The notes below the pieces were generated by a model. That model did no database searches, was not told the origin of the DNA, and saw only the letters and a list, made by a program, of their open reading frames with translations. DNA of 64,000 nucleotides, taken from NCBI GenBank assembly GCA_017416855.1, contig JAFQAZ010000001.1, forward strand, positions 1 to 64,000, given 5' to 3'. The position numbers were made by a program, and so were the translations under genes. Below, piece by piece: positions 157 to 61,798 of the stretch (position 1 is the first letter of the stretch; the number at the start of each line of letters is the position of its first letter). Origin of the DNA: Clostridia bacterium. GTDB taxonomy: Bacteria > Bacillota > Clostridia > UBA1381 > UBA9506.

Positions 157-157
157 C

Positions 158-345
158 AACGATATAAATTCCTGACGGAATTTGCGATATACCTTCGGTG
201 CGATATATTACTGCGTAATGTGATATGTCCCTTCGGGACGAGTTGAAGGAATTTATAGCATATCGCAATCGAACAAGGTGAGATTATATCGAATTTGCGA
301 AGCAAATATATCGCACGAGCGTTAGCGAGTATATCACCTAAATAT
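158..345. repeat. Tract of short hairpins joined by gatata/tatatc words
   Basis: Non-coding tract with at least six short palindromes in a row, for example CCTTCGG, ACTGCGTAAT, CCCTTCGGGA, TTTGCGAAGCAAA and GCGTTAGC. They are separated by recurring gatata, atatcg or tatatc words and flanked by gaatt/aattc. Several have UUCG-like tight loops. It resembles short palindromic repeat mosaics in clostridial genomes and shows no coding potential. From 346 to 525 I see only AT-rich sequence. Confidence 0.5.
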
Positions 346-22454: not shown

Positions 22455-22482
22455 CACAAAAAAGCCGTCTAAAACCTTTTTT

Positions 22483-22655
22483 CTCCGTCCTTTTGCCTGA
22501 GAGATTAACCCCATAGAGGTTTTACACCTTCGGCATCCTTTTGATTCTTTTTAAGAATCGGACTTCTCCGGAGTGCTATCTGTGAACAGTCATTGCTGTC
22601 GCGCCTGAGAGCATTACTCCTTCGGCAAGGCATTTTCGCCTTTCTCCTGCACACT
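22483..22655 (-). ncRNA. Tandem glycine riboswitch (gcvT type)
   Basis: Read on the minus strand, two aptamers follow one another. The first runs from GGAGAAAGGCG through GCCGAAGGAG to CTCTCAGGC. The second runs from CCGGAGAAGTCC through GCCGAAGGTG to CTCTCAGGC and AAAGGACGGAG. The repeated GCCGAAGG and CTCTCAGGC blocks are the conserved glycine-binding core. The second aptamer leads straight into the terminator before agcS. Confidence 0.95.
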
Positions 22656-45157: not shown

Positions 45158-45430
45158 CAAAAAAACCCGTCTCAAAATTGCTTTTGAGACGAGTTGTATA
45201 ACCCGCGGTACCACTCAAATTACGGAATGAAATTCCGTCACTTACCGGACTCTATCAAGCCCTTTGCCTTAACGCAGCATTACGGAAGGAGTCTACTCAC
45301 AATACGCTTTCGGTCCTCCGACTCAGAAGTGATGGGCCATTGGAAGGCTTTGTCATTGGCTCGCAGCAACCGCCAACTCTCTCAAGACTCTGCTATCCGA
45401 CCGTCTTCGTCATAGTCGTTTTTTGTGATA
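45158..45430 (-). ncRNA. T-box leader of the XRE-cupin-acyl-CoA synthetase gene
   Basis: On the minus strand: a long stem I, then the T-box core GAGTGGTACCGCGGGTT (+ strand 45199-45215) and a terminator CTCGTCTCAAAA / TTTTGAGACGGG with seven T's (45158-45196). The base after TGG is T, which predicts a tRNA with discriminator A (Leu, Val, Ile, Phe, Ala and others), not Gly or Ser. The specifier loop reads AGTCGGAG opposite ATAGCA. GUC (Val) is the best in-register reading; UUC (Phe) nearby cannot be excluded. Confidence 0.9.
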
Positions 45431-49402: not shown

Positions 49403-49680
49403 CAAAAAAACGCTTCCATCCCTTTGTTGATTCAAAGAGACGAAAACGTTACAATTACATAGTTTCCGCGGTACCACTCTTTTTCATCCGTTTCGGATGC
49501 CCTTTCGATGCTAACACATCTTTACTCTGTTACGGGAGTTCCCGTCTGCCCCTACTAAAAGTTCACGGCAGCCGCTCCGCGGTGAGTTCTGCAAACCTTT
49601 CCCAATGCCTCGCACCAACCGGCATCTCTCTCAAGGCGAAAGAATTTTGCGTACTATTCCGCATCACTGCGTTTATGATG
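49403..49680 (-). ncRNA. T-box leader with CUC (Leu) specifier
   Basis: On the minus strand: stem I with AGTA bulge motif opposite GAACTCA, giving specifier CTC (Leu) at 49584-49586. The T-box core GAGTGGTACCGCGGAAAC lies at about 49463-49480, and a terminator ACGTTTTCGTCTCTTTG / CAAAGGGATGGAAGCGT with a T-run at 49403-49450. The base after TGG is T, matching the A discriminator of tRNA-Leu. Uncharged tRNA-Leu should allow read-through into the LeuA-like and TIM-ACS genes. Confidence 0.95.
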
Positions 49681-52584: not shown

Positions 52585-53613
52585 TTAAAGCACATCGGCC
52601 AGTTCGTAAATGAGTTTTTCGGTCTTTTCCCATCCGAGGCAGGGGTCTGTTATGGATTTACCGTAGGTACATTCTTCCGGTTTTTGTGCGCCATCTTCAA
52701 TGTAGCTTTCAATCATCAGGCCCTTGACAATCTTTTTAACATCATCAGAATGGCGGCAGCTGTGCAGAACCTCTTTTGCGATTCTGGGCTGTTCCGTCCA
52801 TTTCTTTCCGGAGTTGGCGTGGTTTGTATCGATAATAACCGCGGGGTTTTTAAGACCGGACTGTTCATAAATTTCTGCCAGATGAATCAAGTCTTCGTAG
52901 TGATAGTTCGGCATAGCCTGACCGTGCTTGTTGACATAACCTCTTAAAATAGCGTGGGCAAGAGGATTGCCATGGCTTTCGACTTCCCAGCCTCTATATA
53001 TAAAGGTGTGAGAGTGCTGCGCAGCAGTAATAGAATTCATCATAACAGATATGTCACCTGCGGTGGGGTTTTTCATACCAACGGGAATATCCAGTCCGCT
53101 TGCGGTTAATCTGTGCTTTTGGTTTTCCACCGATCTGGCACCGATGGCAACATAGGACAACAAATCAGACAAATATCTGTAATTTTCGGGGTAGAGCATC
53201 TCGTCGGCACAGGTAAAGCCTGTTTCATTTATGGTTCTGATGTGCAGATTACGGATGGCGATAAGCCCCTTTAACATATCGGAGCCTTTATTGGGATCCG
53301 GCTGATGCAGCATGCCTTTATAACCGTCCCCTGTTGTTCTCGGCTTATTGGTGTAGATTCTCGGAATGATAAAGATTTTATCCGATACCTTTTCTTGCAC
53401 TTTCCGCAGACGTAAAATGTAATCAATCACGCTGTCGTCATGGTCTGCCGAGCAGGGACCAATGATGAGTAGGAGTCTATCGTCTCTTCCCTCAAAGATA
53501 GCCTTGATTTCCGTATCTCTTTTTTCTTTTAATTGTTCATGCTTATATAATAAGGGAAACTGTTCTTTTATCTCCATAGGGATTGGTAATTTGCGTTTGA
53601 ATTCCATGTTCAT
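52585..53613 (-). CDS. aroF: 3-Deoxy-7-phosphoheptulonate synthase (type I)
   Basis: 342 residues, usual length for the AroF/G/H type. LLIIGPCSADHDD, PRTTGDGYKGMLHQPDP, GARSVENQKHR, SGLDIPVGMKNPT and IDTNHANSGKKW supply the PEP, metal and E4P sites. It catalyses the first step of aromatic biosynthesis, joining PEP and erythrose 4-phosphate. No regulatory domain is fused. It is the last gene of the operon that begins with pheA. The start is the ATG after AGGAGGAAA. Confidence 0.95.
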   Translation of the reverse strand: MNMEFKRKLPIPMEIKEQFPLLYKHEQLKEKRDTEIKAIFEGRDDRLLLIIGPCSADHDDSVIDYILRLRKVQEKVSDKIFIIPRIYTNKPRTTGDGYKGMLHQPDPNKGSDMLKGLIAIRNLHIRTINETGFTCADEMLYPENYRYLSDLLSYVAIGARSVENQKHRLTASGLDIPVGMKNPTAGDISVMMNSITAAQHSHTFIYRGWEVESHGNPLAHAILRGYVNKHGQAMPNYHYEDLIHLAEIYEQSGLKNPAVIIDTNHANSGKKWTEQPRIAKEVLHSCRHSDDVKKIVKGLMIESYIEDGAQKPEECTYGKSITDPCLGWEKTEKLIYELADVL

Positions 53614-53631: not shown

Positions 53632-54489
53632 TTATTTTTTATCAAATAATGCTCTGCGCTTGGTTGAATGACGCATCATGTCTCTCATGCCGTCAATATC
53701 TTCTGTTTTGAGCATTGTTTTCAGTTCGTTAAATTTGTCTATAAACAGATCCATTTGTTCTAAAAGAGCATCCTTATTTGCCACAAAGAGCTCGCTCCAC
53801 ATCTGGTCATTTATCCGTGCGATACGGGTCAGGTCTCTGAAGGAGTCACCCGTAAACTTTTCCATATTTTCTTTATCGTTGCAGGTCATCAGCGTGATGG
53901 CGATGCAATGGGTAAGCTGTGAAAGAAATCCAATCATTTCATCGTGCTCTTCCGGAGAAAGGGTAGTCACGTTTGAAAAACCCAGCAGTCTTCCCAGTTC
54001 AAGACAGGTATTGATGGCTTCCGGCGTGTTTTTCGCGGTGGGGGTAACAATATAGTTTGCACCGGCAAACATTTTGTCGGTGCTGTTTTCAACTCCTGAA
54101 ACCTCGCGGCCGGCCATGGGGTGAGCGGCGATGAACTCCACATCATCCCGCAATATATCCTGGATTTTATATACAATGCTTCTCTTTACACCGGTTACGT
54201 CGGTTATGATAGCACCGCTTTTCAAAAGGTGCTGATTCTGCTCAATCCACTCTACAAAAATGTGAGGGTACAAAGCAAAAATCACAAGGTCGGCCTCGCC
54301 GATCATTTTTTTATCCGGTTCTGTTGAGCCTTCATTAATAATCTGCTCGTTAAGCGCATATTCTATAGAGCTTTGCTCTTTGGTGATAGCGCTGATGTGG
54401 AAGCCGAACCGTTTCAAAACTCTTGCGTAGCTACCACCTAAAAGTCCCAGTCCCACGATTAATATTTTTTTGCTTACATCTACAATCAT
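53632..54489 (-). CDS. tyrA: Prephenate dehydrogenase
   Basis: 285 residues. The NAD-binding motif GLGLLGGSYARVL is at the N-terminus; the catalytic His is in AHPMAGREVSGVE, and LSPEEHDEMIGFLSQLTHCIA lines the helical dimer part. There is no C-terminal ACT domain, unlike many Firmicute TyrA proteins, so feedback control must act elsewhere. It oxidises prephenate to hydroxyphenylpyruvate. Its start overlaps the aroA stop by 4 bases. Confidence 0.93.
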   Translation of the reverse strand: MIVDVSKKILIVGLGLLGGSYARVLKRFGFHISAITKEQSSIEYALNEQIINEGSTEPDKKMIGEADLVIFALYPHIFVEWIEQNQHLLKSGAIITDVTGVKRSIVYKIQDILRDDVEFIAAHPMAGREVSGVENSTDKMFAGANYIVTPTAKNTPEAINTCLELGRLLGFSNVTTLSPEEHDEMIGFLSQLTHCIAITLMTCNDKENMEKFTGDSFRDLTRIARINDQMWSELFVANKDALLEQMDLFIDKFNELKTMLKTEDIDGMRDMMRHSTKRRALFDKK

Positions 54490-55688
54490 TGTAATTCTAC
54501 CTCTGCTCCAAGTTTTTCTATATCCTCAAAAAATCCGGGATAGCTTTTTCTGACGGCCTCAATACCGGCAATTTCACCGCCGGTTTGAGAAAGAATTACC
54601 GACATAGCCATAACAATTCTGTGGTCGTTGTGGCCGTCTAAAACAACACCGTTGTATTTAAGTTTCTGCTTTGGCACAGTAACCATATTGTCACCAAAAA
54701 CAAGACCACCACCCAGCTTTGCCAGTTCCTCGTGCATCGCCGCACCTCTGTCGCTTTCCTTTGCCTTTAATCTGTCTGTGCCTGTAAAAACGGCGCCATT
54801 TTTCAAGGCGGCCAGGGCAAAAAGCACAGGGCCTAAGTCGGGGCAATCGGAAATATCGAGGGTTGGTGTTCCGGCGGATATTTTTTCAAAATAATCCTGA
54901 TACACTCTGTCGCCCTGAAGACTATCCGGCTTGAGATTATTTATTTCAATTGCTGAGCCATTATAATTGAAGGCGTCCAGAAAGGCGGCGTTGGAATAAT
55001 CCCCTTCGATTCTGCCGGAATATGCCTGCAGCTTTGATTTTTTAACCGCTATGGTGTATTCATCTGTAAAGTCCACATTTGCGCCGAAGGATTTCAGGGC
55101 AGAAATGGTCAGGTTGATATAAGACCGGCTTTCAAAGGGCGGAATAATCTCAATTACAGAGTCTGCACCCAGGTATACAAGAGCGAAGATGAGTCCTGTT
55201 ATAAACTGACTGCTGATGTCGCCTCGTATTTTATAGTTTCCGCTTGTCAAACAACCGCAAACCGTGACGGAATTTTCGTCTTTTTTAAAAATAAAACCCT
55301 TTTCGCGACAGAGCTCTTCATATACATCAAGCGGTCTTTCTAAAAGGCGCTTGCTGCCTTTTAACGTGATTTCTTTTCCCAAACACAGAGCGAGAGGGAT
55401 AAAAAATCGCAGGGTACTGCCGCTTTCTCTGCACTCTAAAACAGGGCTTTCTGCATTCGTAAAGCATTCGGGATTTACAGTAACAATGTCATTCTCTGTA
55501 GTGATGTCTGCCCCCAAGGCTTTCAGGCAATCGATGCTGGCCAATATATCTTCACTGTAATCAACGCCGGAGAGAGAACAGGTTTGGCCGGATAAAGTGG
55601 CGCCGATCAAATACCGGTGCGCCATGCTTTTTGATGGGGGAGCGCTAATGGTTCCTTTCAGGCTACAAGGTTTAAATTTTGCGTTCAT
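54486..55688 (-). CDS. aroA: EPSP synthase (3-phosphoshikimate 1-carboxyvinyltransferase)
   Basis: 400 residues. Seen are PPSKSMAHRYLIGATLS near the N-terminus, ESGSTLRFFIPLA, the C-terminal RLKAKESDRGAAM and DGHNDHRIVMAMSV. These are the shikimate-3-phosphate and PEP contacts. SGSTLRFF replaces the NAGTA(T/M)R motif of class I enzymes, which is nearer to class II-like sequences. It joins PEP to shikimate 3-phosphate in the sixth shikimate step. Confidence 0.95.
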   Translation of the reverse strand: MNAKFKPCSLKGTISAPPSKSMAHRYLIGATLSGQTCSLSGVDYSEDILASIDCLKALGADITTENDIVTVNPECFTNAESPVLECRESGSTLRFFIPLALCLGKEITLKGSKRLLERPLDVYEELCREKGFIFKKDENSVTVCGCLTSGNYKIRGDISSQFITGLIFALVYLGADSVIEIIPPFESRSYINLTISALKSFGANVDFTDEYTIAVKKSKLQAYSGRIEGDYSNAAFLDAFNYNGSAIEINNLKPDSLQGDRVYQDYFEKISAGTPTLDISDCPDLGPVLFALAALKNGAVFTGTDRLKAKESDRGAAMHEELAKLGGGLVFGDNMVTVPKQKLKYNGVVLDGHNDHRIVMAMSVILSQTGGEIAGIEAVRKSYPGFFEDIEKLGAEVELQ

Positions 55689-55689
55689 A

Positions 55690-56118
55690 TTATCTACCTT
55701 CTGTCAGAAAATCAATGGCTTCCAGATAGCCGTCTGTGCCATGACCTGTAATGGTCTTTATGCAGGCAAGCCTGATGTAGCTTACCTGTCTGAAATCTTC
55801 CCGTTCCTCAACCTTTGAAATGTGCACTTCAACAGTGGGAATGTTAACGGATTTAACGGCATCTAAAATGGCAATGCTTGTGTGGGTATAAGCACCGGGA
55901 TTGATAACGATACCGTCTGCATTTCCGTAAGCCTTTTGTATTTCATCCACAAGGTCACCCTCGTGATTGGATTGATACAGCGTTACTTCAATGTTTTTAT
56001 TCTTACAATGTTTTTCTATTTTCTCGCAAAGGTCGGCATAGGTTTCTTTGCCGTAATGGTCCGGCTCTCTGATGCCTAACATATTCAGGTTCGGTCCGTT
56101 GATAACAAGAATTTTCAT
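55690..56118 (-). CDS. aroQ: 3-Dehydroquinate dehydratase, type II
   Basis: 142 residues. Typical type II features are ILVINGPNLNMLGIREPDHYG with the active-site Tyr, NPGAYTHTSIAILDAV, and EVHISKVEEREDFRQVSYI with the catalytic His. It forms a dodecamer and converts 3-dehydroquinate to 3-dehydroshikimate. The start overlaps the AroE-AroK stop by 4 bases. Confidence 0.96.
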   Translation of the reverse strand: MKILVINGPNLNMLGIREPDHYGKETYADLCEKIEKHCKNKNIEVTLYQSNHEGDLVDEIQKAYGNADGIVINPGAYTHTSIAILDAVKSVNIPTVEVHISKVEEREDFRQVSYIRLACIKTITGHGTDGYLEAIDFLTEGR

Positions 56119-57362
56119 TTGATCAGCTCCAGTCGTTTGGTCAGAATATAGTCGGCTTCGGCCTCGGGCGTTGTCATATCGGGCACCGTGACGTCGGCGG
56201 TTTTTTTGTAAATGCCGATTCTTTCGTTATAAAGCTTTGCAAGTTTATCTTCTGTGTTGGATAACGGTCTGTCATCGGTTGCTCTCAGCCTCTTAAGGTC
56301 TGCATCAATGAAGAAGAGTTTGCCGTTTTGCTTGAGGCAATGTACATTTTCTTCTCTTAAAATAGCACCGCCGCCTGTGGAAATGATGCGGGCGCTTTGA
56401 GCAGAGGCGTCCCGTATAACCTCTGCTTCTAAAACTCTGAAATATTGTTCGCCTTTCTGACTGATGAGGTCTTTGATGGCGCAGCCTGCGCGTTTTACAA
56501 TTTCTTCGTCAGTATCAATAAAGGTAAAACCTTCGATGTTGAGCAGTTTTCCGATGGTGCTTTTGCCACTGCCGGGCATGCCTGTGAGCACGATGTTTTC
56601 TTTTGCAGAAAGAACAGAACGGAACACCTGGTCGGCAGTTTCTTTAGGAATTTTGGTATTCAGGAATTTTTCAACGGCGACAACCGCCTGCATCACCAGC
56701 ATATAAAGACCGCATTCTGCTTTGATGCCTTTTTTCTTGGCGTCGGATACAAGGTTAGTGGTGAGGGGGTTATAAACCGCATCAACCACACCTTCTAAAT
56801 TGCTGAAAGGTGAAATGTCAATGGGTTTTGCATCACAATCGGGATACATACCCGAAGGGGTGGTGTTGATGATTATTTCTGCATTCTGATGACCGGCAAT
56901 GGCATCTTCATAGGTGATGCAGTTTTCTTTTTTGCTTCTGCTGACAACTAGAACATCAGAAGCGCCCAGATCCCGGGCAACAATCTGTGCTGTTTTACTT
57001 GTCCCACCCGTGCCCAGAACAAGAACCTTTTTGCCTTGTAAATCAAGACCGATTCTTTCAATCAGGGCTTTCATTCCGTAGTAATCCGTATTATAACCGT
57101 ATAATTTACCATCCTTGTTAACAATGGTGTTCACGGCGCCGATTCTTCTGGCAATATCGCTTATGGAATCAAGGTAAGGAATCACCGTTTGTTTATAGGG
57201 AATGGTTACGTTAATTGCTTCAAAATTCTTGCTCTCAAAGAAGGGTTTGATTTCCTCCTCTGTAAGCTCTATGAGTTCGTAATCGTAATCGGCTAGTCTT
57301 GCATGAATCTCCTTTGAAAAGCTGTGAGTCAGCTTTTTGCCGATACATCCGTATGGTTTCAT
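56115..57362 (-). CDS. aroE-aroK: Shikimate dehydrogenase-shikimate kinase fusion
   Basis: 415 residues. AroE part (about 1-250): GKKLTHSFSKEIHARL, NVTIPYKQTVIPYLD with catalytic Lys, NTDYYGMKALIE with Asp, and the NADP loop VLGTGGTSKTA. AroK part (about 255-415): Walker A GMPGSGKSTIGKLL, DTDEEIVKRAG, STGGGAILREENV and DDRPLS. The fusion performs steps four and five of the shikimate pathway in one protein. Stop/start overlap with aroQ is 4 bases. Confidence 0.95.
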   Translation of the reverse strand: MKPYGCIGKKLTHSFSKEIHARLADYDYELIELTEEEIKPFFESKNFEAINVTIPYKQTVIPYLDSISDIARRIGAVNTIVNKDGKLYGYNTDYYGMKALIERIGLDLQGKKVLVLGTGGTSKTAQIVARDLGASDVLVVSRSKKENCITYEDAIAGHQNAEIIINTTPSGMYPDCDAKPIDISPFSNLEGVVDAVYNPLTTNLVSDAKKKGIKAECGLYMLVMQAVVAVEKFLNTKIPKETADQVFRSVLSAKENIVLTGMPGSGKSTIGKLLNIEGFTFIDTDEEIVKRAGCAIKDLISQKGEQYFRVLEAEVIRDASAQSARIISTGGGAILREENVHCLKQNGKLFFIDADLKRLRATDDRPLSNTEDKLAKLYNERIGIYKKTADVTVPDMTTPEAEADYILTKRLELIK

Positions 57363-57405: not shown

Positions 57406-58422
57406 TCAGCAGTCTGAAAGACAGCGCTTTGCCATGTTGATGACCTCGTTACAGTTCATTGTTTTCAGCTCGAAACTTCCGATGTCGGGAACCAGGGTGA
57501 TGGTTACCATATCTCCATCAGCTTTTTTATCATGGAAGGCCGCTTCCGTAATGGCATCCCAATCAAATTCAATCATGTTATATAGTCTGCATTTTTTCAG
57601 GACTTCAATCACCCTCGGTCTGATGCCTTCGCCGCACTTGGGAATCAGCCCCAAGGCAACACATTCGCCGTGATAAAGCTCTGACATATGTCCGCTGCTT
57701 TCGATGCCATGGCCAACGGTGTGGCCGAAGTTGAGGATTTTTCTGAGGCCGGATTCTTTTTCGTCCTGCTCCACAACGGTCTTTTTGATGTTAAGAGAAC
57801 GAATGATAATTTCATCAATGTTTTCATTGATATCTTTATGTTCGAAGATATCAAACAGTTCTTTATCAGAAGTCAGAGCCATTTTAATGGCTTCGGCAAG
57901 ACCGTTTGAGATCTGTCTTTCAGGAAGCGTCTTTAACAGCTCCGGATCAATTAAAACCTTTTTAGGCTGATAAAAAGCGCCCACAATGTTTTTAACACCG
58001 CCAAAATTGATGGCAGTTTTGCCACCGATAGAAGAATCAATTTGCGAAAGAAGGGTGGTTGGGATGTTGTAAAAGTCAACCCCGCGCATATAGGCAGAGG
58101 CAACAAAGCCCGAAAGGTCGCCCACAACACCGCCGCCCACAGCGACAACACAATCTTTTCTTGAAAAGTTGTCAGCAAGCATTTTCTGCAGAAGGTCTCC
58201 GAAAACGGCAAGGCTTTTAGAGTCTTCACCCGAGGGAACGGTGCAGATCACCGGTTTTTTACATTGTTTTGCAACCGTTTCTGCATATTGTTCGGGAACG
58301 CCGGAATCGGTTACAATCAGAACTCGTCTGTTTAAATTCAAATGCTTTCCGGCTTCTTGTAAAATGCCTCTTTCAACAATGATATCGTAACTGTTATCCT
58401 TTAAATTTAAATGTATATTCAT
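57406..58422 (-). CDS. aroB: 3-Dehydroquinate synthase
   Basis: 338 residues. The NAD and substrate loops are present: PSGEDSKSLAVFGDLLQKML, VAVGGGVVGDLSGFVAS, YNIPTTLLSQIDSSIGGKTAINF, LNFGHTVGHGIESSG and YHGECVALG, containing the zinc-binding Glu and His residues. It cyclises DAHP to 3-dehydroquinate. It lies 9 bases after the pheA stop. Confidence 0.96.
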   Translation of the reverse strand: MNIHLNLKDNSYDIIVERGILQEAGKHLNLNRRVLIVTDSGVPEQYAETVAKQCKKPVICTVPSGEDSKSLAVFGDLLQKMLADNFSRKDCVVAVGGGVVGDLSGFVASAYMRGVDFYNIPTTLLSQIDSSIGGKTAINFGGVKNIVGAFYQPKKVLIDPELLKTLPERQISNGLAEAIKMALTSDKELFDIFEHKDINENIDEIIIRSLNIKKTVVEQDEKESGLRKILNFGHTVGHGIESSGHMSELYHGECVALGLIPKCGEGIRPRVIEVLKKCRLYNMIEFDWDAITEAAFHDKKADGDMVTITLVPDIGSFELKTMNCNEVINMAKRCLSDC

Positions 58423-58431
58423 CGGTCTACC

Positions 58432-59520
58432 TCATATTTCGATGTGCGGCGCAAATGTGCCTGCTATTTTAAGCTTGTCGCACACGTTGTTTAGTTCTTC
58501 GATCATTTTTCGTCCGTCTTCGGTGTCTGTAGCACCGTCAATTTCAATATAGAAATAATACTGCCAGGAATGTTTCTTTAAAGGTCTGCTACGAAGAGCT
58601 GTCATATTATATCCGTATTTTCCTATAATGCTGATGGCGTTGGCCAAAGAGCCTGCTTCGTGCTTAACGGTGAACATCAGAACAGAATTGGAAAGGGAAG
58701 GGGATGTGGCACGAACCTTTGAAAGAACAGCAAAACGGGTGGTGTTCTCACCGCTTTTGTTGATGTTTGCTTCTAAAACCTTAAGGCCATAAATTTCTGC
58801 TGTTTCAACACTTGCAATAGCGCCCAGGGATTTATCCTTCATTTCTGCAACAGTTTTAGCGGCAACAGCTGTGTTGTTTGCTTCCTCCGTGTCAAAGCCT
58901 TTCAGTTTGATGTATTCGTGGCACTGTGATAATGCCTGGGAATGGCTTGTCACCTTCTTGATGTCTTCTACAGTTGCATCGGGAAGGCCAAGAAGATTCT
59001 GATGAATTTCCAATTCATAGATTCCGTTTATGAAAAGCCCGCCAGAGAAAATCAGGTCAATTGTTTGTCCCACTTCGCCGGCATAACTGTTTTCGATGGG
59101 GAGCACGGCAACATCTGCCTCGCCGGTGACTACGGCATTATAAGCTGATTTAAAATCACGATAAGAGATTCTGTTGCTGCCTTCGAAGATCCTGCCTGCC
59201 GCAATGTGGGCAAAAGCTCCGGGCACACCGCTATAGGCTACCTTTAAGCCACTTTGCATTCTGTATTGATATGCTCTTGAAACAGACATCAGGTGTTTAA
59301 TATAGTCTATGTAATAACTTTTCAGCACATCATCTTCAATCATCGCGGCGTTTTTCTCAACGACAGCATCCTCACGTTTTTGGTCAAGGATAGGCAATCC
59401 GAATTCTTTCTTGTGCTCAAAAACCATTTCAGCAGCTCTCATTCTTTCTACAAAAAGTGCCGCCATTTTTGAATCAACCTCATTAATGATTTTTCTCGCT
59501 TCGTCTAGTTTGTTCGCCAT
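58432..59520 (-). CDS. pheA: Chorismate mutase-prephenate dehydratase
   Basis: 362 residues from ATG 59520 (GAAAGGAAGG upstream; a start 33 bases further up would lie in the attenuator). Chorismate mutase is at about 1-85 (DEARKIINEVDSKMAALFVERMR), prephenate dehydratase at about 95-275 (YSGVPGAFAHIAAG, PIENSYAGEV, TSHSQALSQC, NTTRFAVLS), and the ACT domain at about 285-360 (FTVKHEAGSLANAI). The Phe-binding ESRP is LRSRP here, a variation. First gene of the aromatic operon, behind a Phe/Tyr attenuator. Confidence 0.96.
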   Translation of the reverse strand: MANKLDEARKIINEVDSKMAALFVERMRAAEMVFEHKKEFGLPILDQKREDAVVEKNAAMIEDDVLKSYYIDYIKHLMSVSRAYQYRMQSGLKVAYSGVPGAFAHIAAGRIFEGSNRISYRDFKSAYNAVVTGEADVAVLPIENSYAGEVGQTIDLIFSGGLFINGIYELEIHQNLLGLPDATVEDIKKVTSHSQALSQCHEYIKLKGFDTEEANNTAVAAKTVAEMKDKSLGAIASVETAEIYGLKVLEANINKSGENTTRFAVLSKVRATSPSLSNSVLMFTVKHEAGSLANAISIIGKYGYNMTALRSRPLKKHSWQYYFYIEIDGATDTEDGRKMIEELNNVCDKLKIAGTFAPHIEI

Positions 59521-59539
59521 TTTCAGCCTTCCTTTCAAA

Positions 59540-59575
59540 ATAAAAAACCTCACTTGTTTGTTACAAGTGAGGTTT
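59540..59575 (-). terminator. Attenuator terminator before pheA
   Basis: On the minus strand, AACCTCACTTGT / ACAAGTGAGGTT (59563-59574 and 59546-59557) is followed by TTTTTATTTT. The upstream strand AAACCTCACTTGTAAC can instead pair with GTTACTTGTGAGATTT inside the end of the leader-peptide gene, giving an antiterminator. Confidence 0.92.
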
Positions 59576-59612
59576 GAACATTGTCTGATAGCGTTAAATG
59601 ATTTAAACTGCT

Positions 59613-59720
59613 CTAAAATCTCACAAGTAACTTTTTCATAGCAAAAAAAGCATAGCTAAAGTAAAAGACTACGCTAAAGCTAAAGAAATATTTACCTGCG
59701 TTCATAAGAGCCAAGTTCAT
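59613..59720 (-). CDS. pheL: Phe/Tyr-rich leader peptide of the aromatic operon
   Basis: 35 codons. Start ATG 59720, with GAAGG 8 bases upstream. Between codons 11 and 26 there are 7 Phe and 3 Tyr codons (KYFFSFSVVFYFSYAFFA); an eighth Phe is the last codon. The stop TAG (59613-59615) overlaps the antiterminator strand. A ribosome stalled for Phe or Tyr would leave that strand free and let the antiterminator form; complete translation would cover it and favour termination. The symbol pheL is by analogy with enterobacteria. Confidence 0.92.
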   Translation of the reverse strand: MNLALMNAGKYFFSFSVVFYFSYAFFAMKKLLVRF

Positions 59721-59752
59721 ATTCATTACCTTCAAATTCATAATTTTAAGTT

Positions 59753-59781
59753 ATTTTATCACTCTTGGAGCGGTTTGTCAA
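59753..59781 (-). promoter_or_regulatory. Promoter of the pheL-pheA aromatic operon
   Basis: On the minus strand: TTGACA (59776-59781), 17-base spacer, TAAAAT (59753-59758), about 25 bases before the leader start. Confidence 0.88.
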
Positions 59782-59852
59782 GATAAAATCGGCAAATAGT
59801 CGCGTTTTTCCCCTGCGGTTTTGTATGAATCAAAGAATTTTTCCAAAAACTG

Positions 59853-61399: not shown

Positions 61400-61798
61400 A
61401 GGGCTGTGACATGACATACGATGAAGCGGGAGGTTGCCGCCAGAGGGCGGGTTTTTCCGTGGAGAATGTCCGATTCAAGAAACCGGGCGACTAGTCATAC
61501 GCAAATGGAGTAAAAAAGTACTCACCAAGGCGGATTTTTCTGCCTTTTTGTCCTTTTTTGATTTCGTTTGTGTTCGGGATTCCAATGAGGATGACCGCAA
61601 AAAAGCGTGACGAGCCCAGAAACATATTGGTTTTTGGGTTTTATTTATGGCAAAGGGTGAAACACCCGGCTGTGTGTACGCTTTTTGAGAGGAGCTCGAG
61701 GTTTAAAGGGAGCTCCGGCGAGCCGTTTCTTCATGCACAGACAAAATCTTGCTTCCTTATTATATAGGAAGCGCAAATTCAAAAAGGAGGAAAACAAA
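61400..61798 (+). ncRNA. Structured leader of the S10 operon with internal terminator
   Basis: About 400 bases of 5' UTR containing GC-rich pairable blocks (GCGGGAGGTTGCCGCC, GAATGTCCGATTC, AACCGGGCGACTAG), then a terminator AAGGCGGA / TCTGCCTT with a T-rich tail (61527-61559). Beyond it lie further hairpins, such as GCTTCCT/AGGAAGC (61751-61772) just before the rpsJ ribosome site. No frame in it has convincing coding features. It probably mediates ribosomal-protein or growth-rate feedback; the family is not identified. Confidence 0.65.

Follow-up and report, generated by a model that had tools for sequence, protein, structure and literature searches.

The stretch of DNA analyzed here, 64,000 nucleotides from a Clostridia bacterium (the window), carries an aromatic operon on its minus strand in which the genes pheA-aroB-aroEK-aroQ-aroA-tyrA-aroF follow a short leader region (Table 1). 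Together these genes cover nearly the entire route from the first step to prephenate, plus the Phe and Tyr branches. A promoter, a 35-codon leader and a terminator had been placed ahead of pheA in an earlier note on this DNA, and all three are present. The same note had matched the mixed Phe and Tyr codons of the leader with an operon making both amino acids, which agrees with the occurrence of pheA and tyrA in a single gene run. A mechanically compiled list of open reading frames begins the leader at an in-frame ATG further upstream (42 aa); this start was dropped for the ATG at 59720 (stop codon TAG at 59613), which is favored by the Shine-Dalgarno sequence and by the alignment.

Table 1. 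Leader region and genes of the aromatic operon, in window coordinates
Feature	Coordinates	Strand	Description	Basis
Promoter	59753..59781	-	Sigma-70 type; TTGACA -35 box, 17-nt spacer, extended -10 TG-A-TAAAAT	Consensus scan, 11/12 match
Shine-Dalgarno	59729..59733	-	GAAGG, 8 nt 5' of the leader ATG	Sequence; nearly invariant in type A alignment
Leader ORF	59613..59720	-	MNLALMNAGKYFFSFSVVFYFSYAFFAMKKLLVRF; 35 codons + TAG, 8 Phe and 3 Tyr	Kept in 20 other loci
Strand 1	59685..59700	-	CGCAGGUAAAUAUUUC; partner of strand 2, carries the first control codons Tyr-Phe	Pairing in 21 loci
Inner hairpin	59649..59675	-	AGCGUAGUC ... AGCUAUGCU; within the ORF, belongs to the 1:2 structure	Kept pairs
Strand 2	59620..59631	-	GUUACUUGUGAG; alternative partners strand 1 and strand 3	2:3 pair conservation
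Strand 3	59560..59571	-	CUCACUUGUAAC; pairs with strand 2 as antiterminator and also forms the terminator 5' arm	Pairing, folding
Intrinsic terminator	59545..59575	-	Strands 3 and 4; 13 bp, -17.7 kcal/mol	T tract down to about 59537
pheA	58432..59520	-	Chorismate mutase-prephenate dehydratase, first gene of the operon	Pfam CM_2 and PDT
aroB	57406..58422	-	3-Dehydroquinate synthase	
aroE-aroK	56115..57362	-	Shikimate dehydrogenase-shikimate kinase fusion in a single gene	
aroQ	55690..56118	-	Type II 3-dehydroquinate dehydratase	
aroA	54486..55688	-	EPSP synthase	
tyrA	53632..54489	-	Prephenate dehydrogenase	Pfam PDH_N, PDH_C
aroF	52585..53613	-	DAHP synthase, final gene of the run	Pfam DAHP_synth_1

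The leader RNA contains strands with alternative and mutually exclusive pairings. Strand 2 pairs either with strand 1, around the inner hairpin, or with strand 3, which can instead join strand 4 in the terminator. The calculated energies in the window (kcal/mol) are -25.5 (1:2 hairpin), -16.2 (2:3 hairpin) and -17.7 (terminator). The earlier note had described an antiterminator strand that overlaps the leader stop; the strand exists, but it ends 5 nt short of the stop, and only together with a UUU extension does it adjoin the stop codon. Because the stop begins 5 nt after strand 2, a ribosome positioned at the stop would cover strand 2. The inner hairpin could possibly act as an RNA polymerase pause hairpin. 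When compared with shuffled sequences, the leader region folds better than all of them (z -4.3, 0/200), and so does the segment 3' of the ORF. Shuffling the bases of the ORF gives a mean of 5.4 Phe/Tyr codons, with 10 or more in 3/500 shuffles. As judged by sequence comparison, the decisive evidence against chance is the conservation of the leader in 20 other loci.

An Rfam scan returned nothing credible over the leader, either at the gathering thresholds or at E values up to 10. This included the covariance models of Phe_leader (RF01859) and the Leu/phe leader (RF01743), neither of which matched at either setting, and the T-box model (RF00230), which had no match in 59530-59790. The top-scoring family over the leader was PyrR, at 26 bits versus a cut-off of 54, and was set aside as probably a chance match to a terminator-like structure. 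Elsewhere in the window, Rfam places a glycine riboswitch (22475-22581, minus strand), an S10-Clostridia ribosomal protein leader (61412-61493, plus strand) and a Gut-1 RNA (157-231, plus strand).

The earlier note had called for a search of related genomes, and we carried this out through the first gene of the operon. A PheA search of species-representative genomes gave 80 loci, 20 of which carry the leader of the window, nearly always directly 5' of pheA. This form is referred to as type A. Boxes resembling TTGACA and TATAAT lie upstream of most type A leaders. Across the 34 aligned codons pN/pS is 0.52, and at ten aligned control codons (11-13, 15, 19-21, 23, 25, and 26) about 97% of cells encode Phe or Tyr, the exceptions being AAC, AAT, TGT, CGT, and TTG, once each among 20 rows. 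The codon run, whose absence from relatives with the same operon the earlier note had named as evidence against its reading, is thus kept at nearly every control position. Whether a position is Phe or Tyr is also conserved. The end of the ORF is not fixed, giving lengths of 29-42 codons, and up to strand 2 the length differences are multiples of three, except in L055.

The RNA pairings are conserved to a similar extent across the 21 loci. The pairs of the 1:2 stem are kept in 95.2% of cells, those of the inner hairpin in 97.4% (three pairs with two-sided changes), and those of the terminator in 98.1% (two such pairs). Taken together, the three structures keep 96.7% of cells with eight pairs changed on both sides, a level matched by 0/500 shuffles. 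The antiterminator (2:3) is kept in 98.1% of cells versus 22-52% when the strands are slid by one to three bases. Covariation backs this helix only weakly, because most of its pairs hardly vary. In the PheA tree, type A forms essentially one group apart from L055; its members are close relatives, and therefore the conservation reflects in part recent shared ancestry. Because every anatomical element is present and conserved, and because the codon run persists in relatives, the reading of this region as a leader-peptide attenuator is supported by the sequence comparison.

To place the ribosome on the leader, we used a stall simulation of our own design: with a control codon in the ribosomal A site and the first free base set at P-site +17, the RNA 3' of the ribosome was folded as far as strand 3 extends. 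Under these simulated stalls, all 21 leaders fold the antiterminator for nearly every control codon, two codons of L063 being the clear exceptions. Without a ribosome, the full fold contains the terminator in 19/21 leaders, and the antiterminator is favored in the other two (L038 and L107). The 1:2 stem is absent from the full-length minimum-energy fold in five loci, including L038 and L107.

Taken together, the region has its own promoter, an ORF with a Shine-Dalgarno sequence, a cluster of codons for the end products and an intrinsic terminator, and by computed pairing and folding it has an antiterminator that excludes the terminator and becomes available when a ribosome occupies the control codons. 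Our current hypothesis, which we hold with high confidence, is that the region controls the aromatic operon by ribosome-mediated transcription attenuation and senses charged tRNA-Phe and tRNA-Tyr. When both charged tRNAs are ample, the ribosome would pass the Phe and Tyr codons and reach the stop beside strand 2. With strand 2 covered by the ribosome or bound to strand 1, strands 3 and 4 would form the terminator, and transcription would end ahead of pheA. If one or the other charged tRNA runs low, the ribosome would stall on the Tyr and Phe codons 11-26 and open the 1:2 hairpin, the freed strand 2 would pair with strand 3, and RNA polymerase would enter the operon. We infer from this that the leader is translated, that ribosome and polymerase are coupled, and that both Phe and Tyr are sensed.

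A second leader, unrelated to type A, was found in about 41 other loci of the PheA set. This type B leader is short, has the core ..KFYFYYF.KGCPSF.. and is typified by the peptide MNNNKFYFYFYYFNKGCPSFVKTEN (example, L036 1625-1812). Its usual site is about 1.2 kb 5' of pheA, before the aroF that precedes pheA. It stands directly before pheA in L056, L062, L128, and L129, and by eye before an aminotransferase-like gene in L127. In the type B antiterminator, the bases encoding KGCP, AAGGGCUGCCCG, have their pairing partner, CGGACAGUCC, at the terminator 5' arm. This pairing is kept in 98.5% of cells (46 matches), with four pairs showing two-sided changes. In the run before KGCP, Phe/Tyr codons make up 78% in frame; the other two frames give 32% and 19%, and shuffled sequences 40%. 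Type B runs hold 5-9 Phe/Tyr codons, and the roughly 10 of type A are spread out. Phe and Tyr swap positions among type B members and the richness stays, as would be expected if either amino acid serves. Two loci have tandem type B leaders, two before one operon (L096 692-1012 and L079 1559-1886). Further Phe-rich leaders with a terminator-like stem lie before DAHP synthase genes in L099 (about 1765-1940), L012 (130-310), and L015 (230-390); these fit neither model well, those of L012 and L015 being distantly type A-like.

The swapping of Phe and Tyr in type B bears on the possibility that the ribosome is arrested by the aromatic peptide itself, with Phe, Tyr, or another ligand as the trigger, and that this stall sets the same RNA switch. 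The type A peptide would suit such an arrest, as it is kept position by position, including which residues are Phe and which are Tyr. However, much of this conservation falls in paired bases, and the members are close kin. The scrambled order and retained richness of type B fit codon reading better than a fixed arrest sequence. We therefore regard nascent-peptide arrest as improbable. A still more doubtful proposal is that the ORF encodes a small membrane protein, co-transcribed by chance, with the terminator acting as a plain 5' attenuator or being a leftover. The peptide does resemble a single hydrophobic segment with a basic end, but its codons double as RNA strands whose pairing partners lie in one another and in the terminator, its end varies in length as described above, the leader was seen only before aromatic operons among the loci examined, and in type B an unrelated peptide takes its place.

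The attenuator reading is also favored by loci in which T-boxes, sensors of uncharged tRNA, occupy the position of the leader. The earlier note had contrasted leader peptides with T-boxes, and in some sister loci T-boxes do stand in place of the leader. One such T-box precedes pheA in L031 (2680-2928), whose PheA is 88% identical to that of the window. Rfam places others before aroF in L065 (1551-1803) and L087 (1607-1858), and two more were recognized by motif in L091 and L074 (about 1640-1930). In our own alignment, the specifier triplet of L031, L065, and L087 is probably UUC (Phe). In the window itself, T-boxes occur only at 49433-49676 and at 45182-45422, both on the minus strand and both upstream of a gene resembling a ligase or synthase, and the source genome has about five to six. 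That the leader is itself a T-box, a metabolite riboswitch, or the target of an RNA-binding-protein attenuator, with the ORF incidental, is hardly credible: T-boxes are common in the source genome and precede pheA or aroF in some relatives, but no Rfam family, T-box included, reaches its cut-off over the leader, and what is conserved is a reading frame preceded by a Shine-Dalgarno sequence.

In several further relatives the leader is decayed or absent. The terminator is kept and the type A leader is broken by in-frame stops in L035 (386-499) and L048 (about 2800-2950), only a terminator-like stem is found in L032 (upstream of 3001), and the leader is absent from L042 and L058. In all five, an ACT-domain gene lies directly upstream of pheA. 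The L031 T-box and the decayed cases fall inside or beside the type A group in the PheA tree, and the four leader labels require 8 changes on this tree versus 26 in shuffles. The number of exchange events is uncertain because branch support is modest. PheA is only about 32-50% identical to that of the window in 7/9 genomes of the same genus, and that of other genera and families reaches 84-88%. The greater similarity of PheA in other genera and families than within the genus may reflect transfer or replacement of the aromatic operon.

For a wider view, genomes were scanned with the type A model (R1) and the type B model (R2). R1 matched in 4/95 genomes of the order to which the window belongs and in 9/391 genomes sampled from the class, spread over several families; R2 matched in 2/95 and 5/391, respectively. 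Phylum-wide samples (about 300 genomes each), scanned with strict filters and a fast pre-selection that may miss rarer or divergent leaders, gave no match except the leader of the window itself. Among the weakest matches, two resemble true but distant members, L124 ahead of a DAHP synthase gene and L121 ahead of aroF, L122 is the decayed leader of L035, and L123 has no aromatic-gene context of that sort. By their titles, the records of related genomes appear to derive from Clostridia of the gut, chiefly that of ruminants.

Firmicutes are usually held to sense amino acids for biosynthesis by T-boxes, riboswitches, and RNA-binding proteins. Leader-peptide attenuation of aromatic synthesis may have arisen at least twice, in unrelated sequence families, within one Firmicutes class, swapping with T-boxes and plain read-through among close kin, a proposal for which we consider the chances evenly balanced. 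If true, it would imply functional coupling of ribosome and RNA polymerase in these Clostridia, or synchrony through pausing at the inner hairpin. Leader families that trade with T-boxes at the same operon provide a natural series on the gain, loss, and replacement of a sensor, which also bears on transcription-translation coupling in uncultured gut Clostridia. In addition, the leaders can be used to annotate aromatic operons now missed by Rfam.

The closest known parallel is the enterobacterial pheA attenuator (PheL, RF01859), in which a promoter, a short Phe-rich leader, strands 1-4, and a terminator precede pheA. The leader described here has the same layout, but unlike PheL it mixes Phe and Tyr codons, belongs to another phylum, and would control a whole shikimate-to-Phe/Tyr operon. 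The view in the earlier note that this mechanism is rarely described for Firmicutes has to be tempered, as His leaders, a Lactococcus Leu/phe leader, and an Acholeplasma aroF uORF have been published. Predictions of His leader peptides exist for bacilli (PMC2965389) as well as for B. cereus, Peptostreptococcaceae, and Erysipelotrichales (PMC9413887); these leaders likewise represent leader-peptide transcription attenuation alternating with T-boxes, but have histidine codons, his genes, and other sequences and lineages. The Acholeplasma uORFC-13-1 motif also has a uORF and a terminator before the DAHP synthase gene aroF, with Phe incorporation proposed as the signal (PMC8632094). That motif, known from Acholeplasma and environmental sequences, is described as having one or more Phe codons supplied by a U run, whereas the present leaders contain several Phe/Tyr codons each (5-9 or about 10) and occur in another class. 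The Leu/phe leader that Rfam lists for Lactococcus lactis (RF01743, PMC2864571) is by name also a Firmicute peptide leader, from a different organism and without an Rfam match here. Ribosome-mediated transcription attenuation has been demonstrated experimentally for the bmrB leader of Bacillus subtilis (PMC4191407), which is the same type of mechanism in a Firmicute but responds to antibiotics and not to an amino acid. For Enterococcus and Streptococcus, structure-only attenuators have been listed upstream of Phe/Tyr supraoperons (PMC1173090). No published Phe/Tyr leader in Clostridia was found in the openly licensed literature, and within what is searchable there both Phe/Tyr families look undescribed. 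The mechanism is thus already known, and the novelty lies in two families of Phe/Tyr leaders that are found here and there in several families of a single class and trade places with T-boxes.
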